Assembly (NCBI GenBank): GCA_018882545.1
Contig: VERS01000012.1
Span: 1 to 12,720, forward strand
Source of the DNA: Mycobacterium sp.
Lineage (GTDB): Bacteria > Actinomycetota > Actinomycetes > Mycobacteriales > Mycobacteriaceae
Reading direction: 5' to 3'
DNA length: 12,720 bases
Shown here one piece after another: positions 2,162 through 5,152 of this stretch (position 1 is its first letter; the number at the start of each line of letters is the position of its first letter). Made by a program: the position numbers and the translations under genes. The notes below the pieces were generated by a model. The model had not been told where the DNA came from and ran no database searches. It was given only the letters and a program-made list of their open reading frames with translations.

Positions 2162-2177
2162 GGGAGAGAGCACAGCA

Positions 2178-2234
2178 ATGACTGCGATGACGACGATGCG
2201 GAGCGCAGCGACGAGGAGGAGCAGCGCAACATGA
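2178..2234 (+). other. Candidate 18-residue mini-ORF in repeat copy 1
   Basis: ATG at 2178 opens a frame of 18 codons ([18 protein letters not shown]) ending in TGA at 2232-2234, which overlaps the ATG of copy 2 as ATGA. GGGAGAG upstream, just after the rpsZ stop, gives a usable ribosome binding site. The peptide is basic at its C-terminal half and has no recognisable domain. Translation is inferred from the layout. The role may be only to carry ribosomes toward rpsH. Confidence 0.35.
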
Positions 2235-2287
2235 CTGCGATGACGACGATGCGGAGCGCAGCGACGAGGAGGAGCAGCGCCAAATGA
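2231..2287 (+). other. Candidate 18-residue mini-ORF in repeat copy 2
   Basis: ATG at 2231 opens a second 18-codon frame ([18 protein letters not shown]), nearly identical to the first. It ends in TGA at 2285-2287, which overlaps the rpsH ATG (2284-2286). GAGGAGGAG of copy 1 (2213-2221) serves its start with about nine bases of spacing. Because 53 is not a multiple of three, the two frames and rpsH are each offset, so ribosomes must stop and restart at both ATGA junctions. Confidence 0.35.
2266..2274 (+). promoter_or_regulatory. Repeat-borne Shine-Dalgarno sequence of rpsH
   Basis: GAGGAGGAG in repeat copy 2 ends nine bases before the rpsH ATG. No other ribosome binding site is near, so the repeat itself supplies translation initiation for an essential ribosomal protein. 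The identical sequence in copy 1 (2213-2221) sits at the same distance from the ATG at 2231. Confidence 0.75.
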
Positions 2288-2682
2288 CGATGACTGACCC
2301 GATCGCGGACTTCCTCACCCGCCTGCGCAACGCCAACTCGGCCTACCACGACGAGGTGACCCTGCCGCACTCGAAGATCAAGGCCAACATCGCCGAGATC
2401 CTCAAGAGCGAGGGCTACATCAGCGACTTCCGCACCGAGGATGCCCGGGTGGGCAAGGCGCTGGTGGTCAAACTCAAGTACGGGCCCAATCGCGAGCGCA
2501 GCCTCGCCGGCCTGCGCCGGGTGTCCAAGCCGGGTTTGCGGGTTTACGCCAAATCCACCAACCTGCCGCGGGTTCTCGGTGGGCTGGGTGTGGCGATCAT
2601 CTCCACCTCCGCCGGACTGAAGACCGATCGCCAGGCCGCCCGCGAGGGCGTCGGCGGCGAAGTCCTCGCGTACGTGTGGTAG
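2284..2682 (+). CDS. rpsH: 30S ribosomal protein S8
   Basis: The protein is 132 residues, the same length I recall for mycobacterial S8. S8 binds helix 21 of 16S rRNA and is an early 30S assembly protein; in E. coli it also represses the spc operon. The protein begins [20 protein letters not shown], the canonical S8 N-terminus, and ends in the conserved [29 protein letters not shown] 2284 is chosen over the ATG at 2290 because it coincides with the end of the second 53-bp repeat and has the better-spaced Shine-Dalgarno sequence. The start codon overlaps the stop of the mini-ORF before it. Confidence 0.98.
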
Positions 2683-3706: not shown

Positions 3707-4423
3707 ATGACGGAGCAGACTTCAGCTCCCGAGGTGTCGCCGCAGGCCGGGGCGCCCGCTGCGGGTAGCCGCGTCGACGACCGCGGCGGCCGTGACGACC
3801 GCGGGGGCCGTGATGATCGCGGCGGCCGCGGCCGGCGGGATGACCGCGGGGGCCGCGGCGGCCGCGACGGCGGCGAGAAGAGCAACTACCTCGAACGGGT
3901 GGTCGCGATCAACCGGGTCTCGAAGGTGGTCAAGGGTGGCCGCCGGTTCAGCTTCACCGCGTTGGTCATCGTCGGCGACGGGCACGGGATGGTCGGGGTC
4001 GGCTACGGCAAGGCCAAAGAGGTGCCCGCCGCGATCGCCAAGGGGGTCGAGGAGGCTCGCAAGAACTTCTTCCGTGTCCCGCTGATCGGTAGCACCATCA
4101 CCCACCCGGTGCAGGGCGAGGCGGCTGCCGGTGTGGTGATGCTGCGTCCGGCCAGCCCCGGTACCGGGGTCATCGCCGGCGGCGCCTGCCGCGCGGTGCT
4201 CGAATGTGCCGGTGTGCACGATGTGCTGGCCAAGTCGCTGGGCAGCGACAACGCGATCAACGTGGTGCACGCCACCGTGGCCGCGCTGAAGATGCTGCAG
4301 CGTCCCGAAGAGGTGGCGGCCCGTCGCGGTCTGCCCATCGAGGACGTCGCACCGGCCGGGATGCTGAAGGCCCGCCGGGAGAGCGAGGCGGCGGTCGCGG
4401 CCGCCGCGCGGGAAGGGATCTGA
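3707..4423 (+). CDS. rpsE: 30S ribosomal protein S5 with RGG-rich N-terminal tail
   Basis: The protein is 238 residues from ATG 3707 (239 from the adjacent ATG 3704); E. coli S5 has about 167. The core runs from [19 protein letters not shown] (about residue 60 on), through [28 protein letters not shown], to the C-terminal domain [28 protein letters not shown]5 takes part in decoding fidelity and forms the mRNA entry site with S3 and S4. The extra N-terminal tail (residues 1-58) holds four DDRGGR units (24-41 and 45-50) plus further GGR steps. It is a charged, probably disordered, possibly RNA-binding extension. GGAAGGA at 3693-3699 fits the 3707 start best with seven bases of spacing. An in-frame extension upstream to 3632 overlaps rplR and is not accepted. 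Confidence 0.97.
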
Positions 4424-5096: not shown

Positions 5097-5152
5097 GAGC
5101 AGACGCAAAAGGCTCCGCACGCTCGGCGTGTCGGAGCCTTTTGCGTCTGCTC
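5097..5152. terminator. Perfect bidirectional stem-loop terminator after rplO
   Basis: Arms 5097-5117 and 5132-5152 are perfect reverse complements over 21 bases, each running from GAGCAGACGCAAAA (or its complement) into a GC-rich inner half. Inside, CACG (5118-5121) can pair with CGTG (5127-5130), leaving a five-base loop. The inner GGCTCCG...CGGAGCC hairpin is followed by TTTT (5139-5142) on the plus strand. By symmetry it is also followed by TTTT on the minus strand, so it can act as an intrinsic terminator in both directions. No T run follows the full outer stem. The outer arm sequence matches the repeat at 426-485. Confidence 0.8.

Follow-up and report, generated by a model that had tools for sequence, protein, structure and literature searches.

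The window analysed here, a stretch of 12,720 nucleotides from Mycobacterium sp. (assembly GCA_018882545.1, contig VERS01000012.1), carries a run of ribosomal protein genes whose order, using NCBIfam names, is L14, L24, L5, type Z S14, S8 and L6. The space between the genes for type Z S14 (rpsZ) and S8 (rpsH) consists of a 16-nt linker followed by two 53-bp units, the coordinates of which are collected in Table 1. Tandem Repeats Finder delimited the repeat at 2177-2288 with a period of 53, 2.1 copies and a score of 210, and on that score a chance tandem is unlikely. A preliminary description of this DNA, which had been made from the sequence by eye, placed tandem 53-bp repeats at exactly this position; it had counted 50 identical bases out of 53, and comparison of the two units revealed 51 (96%). 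The first bases of rpsH, ATGAC, are also the first bases of each unit, and the first unit occupies the place that the rpsH start has in relatives without a unit. The ATG that follows the last unit is the rpsH start itself, and each unit contains a Shine-Dalgarno-like GAGGAGGAG nine bases before the next ATG, both as the preliminary description had them. The GAGGAGGAG of the second unit is the apparent ribosome-binding site of rpsH.

Table 1. Features at the rpsZ-rpsH junction, in window coordinates (MIRU, mycobacterial interspersed repetitive unit).
Feature	Position	Strand	Basis
rpsZ (type Z S14)	ends 2161		ORF list; NCBIfam NF005974, E 1.2e-35
16-nt linker GGGAGAGAGCACAGCA, Shine-Dalgarno-like, 5' of first repeat ORF	2162..2177	+	sequence; junction comparison
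MIRU-type unit 1, 53 bp	2178..2230	+	repeat finding; genus matches
Repeat ORF 1, 18 codons; stop overlaps ORF 2 start in ATGA 2231-2234	2178..2234	+	
Shine-Dalgarno-like GAGGAGGAG, 9 nt 5' of ATG at 2231	2213..2221	+	sequence reading
MIRU-type unit 2, 53 bp	2231..2283	+	repeat finding; genus matches
Repeat ORF 2, 18 codons; stop overlaps rpsH start in ATGA 2284-2287	2231..2287	+	
Shine-Dalgarno-like GAGGAGGAG of rpsH, 9 nt 5' of rpsH ATG	2266..2274	+	sequence reading
rpsH (30S ribosomal protein S8)	2284..2682	+	ORF list; NCBIfam NF001109, E 1.3e-52

Other repeats were seen elsewhere in the window. Near the 5' end of rpsE, at 3775-3876, tandem repeats of 9/18 bases lie where Asp, Arg and Gly codons abound. 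Terminator-like inverted repeats built on GAGCAGACGCAAA occupy 428-487 and 5097-5152, and the latter has arms of 21 bases (5097-5117 and 5132-5152) that are complementary throughout.

The repeat family in the genome and the genus

MIRUs are dispersed repeats that form tandem arrays at gene starts, contain a small ORF with overlapping ends and occupy DTGA insertion sites; they serve as strain markers. Their mobility is, to our knowledge, unexplained. The first description is said to be that of Supply et al. in 1997, from the senX3-regX3 junction.

In its own assembly (84% complete, 755 contigs) the window pair is the sole full match to the unit. One other credible copy was found there (L002), partial and diverged (36 bases at 94% or 32 at 97%), which lies about 47 bases from an apparent contig end and runs right up to the ATG of an ORF that starts with MPTALITGAGGG, presumably a dehydrogenase-like protein. 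Matches L003-L008 (E > 0.02), of which only the mid-locus stretches were viewed, were taken as chance. Two near-identical copies here and a single credible, partial copy elsewhere in the assembly are compatible with the rpsH ribosome-binding region having simply been duplicated in place, outside any dispersed family. However, a search of the genus revealed matching units in 101 of 198 genomes at E<=1e-3, each with 1 to 13 matches when tandem copies are included and most of those read at other gene starts, and the same unit lies 5' of rpsH in 35 of 190 genomes. Because of these matches across the genus, a local duplication unrelated to a dispersed family was rejected, and we regard it as highly improbable. 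When a family-wide draw of 151 genomes was searched, seven had matches at E<=1e-4; two of the seven (G307 and G315) lie outside the genus, both with weak matches that were set aside, and L379, the one locus among them that was read around its match, contained no unit-like array.

Arrays at the loci read comprise 1 to 9 copies, mostly spaced at 51-54 bp. The spacing was 53 in 42 of 59 measured rows, rpsH rows included, and 52 in a further 12, so that exact overlap is not universal. We then asked where the arrays end. The 69 loci used for this purpose were the 29 best other matches and 40 picked among the matches listed; L341 and L343, in which the pattern identified no core, and L333 and L346, which lie too near a contig end, were excluded, leaving 65. 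A gene start in the sense direction followed the last unit in 58 of these 65 loci (five of the 58 being rpsH itself), compared with 14 of 64 in a reverse-strand control and 20.7% at random places. No gene start followed the last unit in the other seven (L109, L311, L317, L321, L331, L334 and L340). Judged by their N-termini, the genes after units also include what we take to be frr (L094 and L345), carA (L108) and purE (L116). At L099 an array of five 53-bp units separates a sensor histidine kinase gene from a gene for an OmpR/PhoB-type (PhoB/MtrA-type) regulator. We presume these flanking genes to be SenX3 and RegX3, a naming for which none of the NCBIfam models listed reaches its cut-off.

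With MIRUs the units have in common their length class, the arrangement in tandem arrays, a sense position at the starts of genes, a small ORF that overlaps the start after it, a predominance of DTGA starts and presence at a regX3-like start. They differ from MIRUs as we know them in occupying the rpsH start within the spc operon, in the distinct sequence group formed by the rpsH units and in the existence of an 83-86-bp form with an in-frame insert. Membership of the window pair in this family, as a tandem MIRU pair, is well supported. The preliminary description had called the repeat MIRU-like and a portable translation-initiation cassette: the first is borne out by the genus matches and their spacing, and the sense gene starts after last units fit the second. 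It had also reasoned that a unit absent from the rest of the genome, at a junction identical in all relatives, would be a simple local duplication. The unit is present elsewhere in the genome, as the diverged part-copy, and the junction differs among relatives, which have 0, 1 or 2 units. The earlier interpretation is therefore supported in substance, and to it the present analysis adds the ORF with its ATGA overlap, rpsH as a repeated site and the sequence likeness among rpsH units.

Units, leader hairpin and possible unit tails at the rpsH junction

The gene rpsH was found in 190 of the 198 genomes and its junction was read in 191 rows from these 190; scripted counts use 189 rows, without L307 and L381, neither of which has a unit. 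Units are present between rpsZ and rpsH in 35 of the 190 genomes, as one unit in 29, two in four (L118, which is this window, L142, L159 and L280) and a diverged unit in two (L295 and L301). In genome G167 rpsH occurs on two contigs, L142 with two units and L203 with none; this is probably a mixed assembly. In all 35 unit-bearing rows the rpsH ATGA contains the TGA that closes the last repeat ORF. Unit length is 53 in 28 rows, 86 in six and 83 in one, and all of these lengths are 2 mod 3. The 83-86-bp form carries an in-frame insert of 30-33 bases (L151, L180, L182, L184, L194, L195 and L236); weaker matches to the 86-bp form occur elsewhere in some of nine genomes.

These 35 open frames are weak evidence of selection, because few single mutations would create a stop and the rows are related. 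That scarcity of potential stops, together with a repeat peptide that varies at several codons and a predicted fold in which GCGC arms enclose each unit's Shine-Dalgarno sequence, would also suit a unit acting mainly as a DNA or RNA element, either a spacer or a hairpin that hides the Shine-Dalgarno sequence, with the ORF incidental. We consider this unlikely: comparison with shuffled sequences revealed no marked fold in the RNA of the units (z -1.59, with 14 of 200 shuffles as good), and every one of the 35 rpsH rows keeps the frame, even across inserts of 33 or 30 bases.

A second feature of the junction is a hairpin, CGNNN-UA-GGYCC ... GG-AA-ACC-N-NNNCG, located directly 5' of rpsH in many Actinomycetes. 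All five pairs of its outer helix can be placed in 118 of 189 genus rows and in 59 of 79 named actinobacterial loci (80 were fetched, one without a recognised start), counts that are flattered by taking the best of several placements. In an alignment of 29 sequences, from which the structure itself was also drawn, 95.8% of cells were paired compared with 85.7% after shuffling, and the covariation score was 0.394 compared with 0.182; none of 500 shuffles reached the observed paired percentage, covariation score, number of cells changed on both sides or number of pair types. Five pairs were changed on both sides, compared with 3.2 in shuffles, a value reached by 18 of 500, and all slid versions scored lower. 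Searches of nine sources returned no Rfam family at the gathering score, and one locus searched at a low threshold gave chance-level hits only. By a loose pattern the hairpin is kept in 23 of the 35 unit-bearing rows, with the unit lying between it and rpsH; junction comparison revealed no hairpin in the window. Our guess is that it is a candidate control element for a ribosomal protein, possibly S8. Like the autoregulatory leaders of ribosomal protein genes, it is a covarying hairpin just 5' of the gene; unlike them, it has no Rfam match in the stretches tested and is absent from the window.

Some junctions that have no unit appear to retain part of one. In four of 38 short unit-free linkers (L242, L204, L263 and L128), 14-16 of 18 positions agree with a unit tail, whereas the control ribosome-binding regions, 182 from rpsZ and 108 from leader-type rpsH, reach at most 11 of 18. 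Ten rows in the clade of L242 share its linker with an apparent one-base gap; their ungapped score is only 11, no better than that of the best controls. The resemblance suggests that in these lineages unit tails became the ribosome-binding sites of rpsH, and were possibly domesticated.

Target-site signature and history of the rpsH units

The bases that open a unit tend to be those that also open the gene downstream of it, even where that gene starts with GTG or TTG. We quantified this tendency in 47 de-duplicated, non-rpsH loci, after setting aside genes starting MTMT (the rpsH rows and a single further gene). The first six bases of the unit were those of its own gene in 27 of the 47, against a permutation mean of 3.3 and with none of 20000 permutations as high. 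Unit starts had been required to be ATG, GTG or TTG, so that agreement at the first three positions was wholly or partly imposed; at positions 4, 5 and 6 unit and gene agreed in 42, 38 and 31 of 47 loci, against 34.4, 17.1 and 17.4 expected. The gene starts in these loci were ATGA in 30, TTGA in seven and GTGA in three, and the other seven were not DTGA. The agreement would be explained if 5-6 bases spanning the start codon had been duplicated, and the shared bases are such as a target-site duplication would leave. These gene-specific 5-6-base repeats and some exact empty sites bear on possible movement by transposition; no enzyme or event was seen.

The empty sites come from 14 pairs of filled and empty junctions. 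Five pairs differ by exactly one unit length, namely 53 in L285/L213, L253/L204, L158/L260 and L146/L128 and 86 in L236/L172; another five differ by 52, 54, 85 or 87, and the remaining four by some other number of bases, two-unit arrays being involved in three of the four. L236/L172, L158/L260 and L146/L128 are sisters on the junction tree, and L285/L213 and L253/L204 are not. On this tree, which was built from 180 of the 189 rows (nine were omitted for short or unparsed flanks) and has about 540 columns and many weak forks, the presence of the unit changes 28 times, with a range of 27-30 in the first 200 of the 1000 bootstrap trees. If the unit arose once, 50 losses must be assumed, and if it was only ever gained, 31 gains, compared with 28 changes when both are mixed. 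All of these counts are rough because the tree rests on one short region.

The rpsH units themselves have a sequence group of their own. In 33 of 35 rows the rpsH unit is closer to another rpsH unit than to any of 54 units from elsewhere, the exceptions being L259, which ties, and L301, which is nearer to generic units. Such a group fits poorly with fresh insertion from each genome's own pool, and favours either an old rpsH lineage that was often lost or an exchange of junctions between species. We give even odds to the account in which a single old insertion at rpsH was lost cleanly many times, by slippage between the short ATGAC repeats, or was passed between species, with the same present function. 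Several empty sites are clean and a unit-like tail is kept in four unit-free genomes, as this account would have it; yet it must accommodate 50 losses where 31 gains or 28 mixed changes would suffice, and the 83-86-bp form is found in two parts of the rough tree that are far apart. Somewhat below even we place a bolder proposal, in which the rpsH start would be a recurrent docking site, genus-wide, for a mobile cassette that targets start codons. This cassette would duplicate 5-6 bases over the start and bring in a coupled mini-ORF that separates rpsH from an old RNA control element. It may have been domesticated in some lineages, with the control element gone and a leftover tail serving as the ribosome-binding site of rpsH.

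For the window itself, our reading is that the pair is a tandem MIRU positioned exactly at the rpsH start codon, which arrived by insertion and of which each unit left rpsH a coupled start; we put its probability at roughly 0.78, and the nine junction pairs that do not differ by exactly one unit count against it. According to the model, a unit would insert at a DTGA-type start (ATGA, GTGA or TTGA) and in doing so duplicate about 5-6 bases over it, after which the old start and old Shine-Dalgarno sequence would drive the short ORF of the unit. Ribosomes that reach the end of this ORF would terminate at the TGA within ATGA and then initiate, or reinitiate, at the ATG that overlaps it, where the unit's own GAGGAGGAG may assist. 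Each unit would leave rpsH with a working, coupled start, and the gain, loss or tandem growth of units could be tolerated in an essential operon. Genes that are translationally coupled through ATGA overlaps offer a parallel, since here too a stop, that of the repeat ORF, overlaps the start of rpsH; here, however, the upstream partner is an 18-codon repeat ORF and not a gene. Both the coupled translation and its effect on S8 output are inferred.

Ribosomal protein operons rank with the most conserved strings of genes, and the ratios of their proteins are tightly set. At the rpsH start of such an operon a repeat would have entered or left many times, leaving an apparent start signal each time. 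The junctions of the genus offer a natural series (hairpin alone, hairpin plus unit, unit alone and tail alone) in which the evolution of translation signals in an essential operon may be tested. Moreover, the repeat provides a countable target-site signature for MIRUs.
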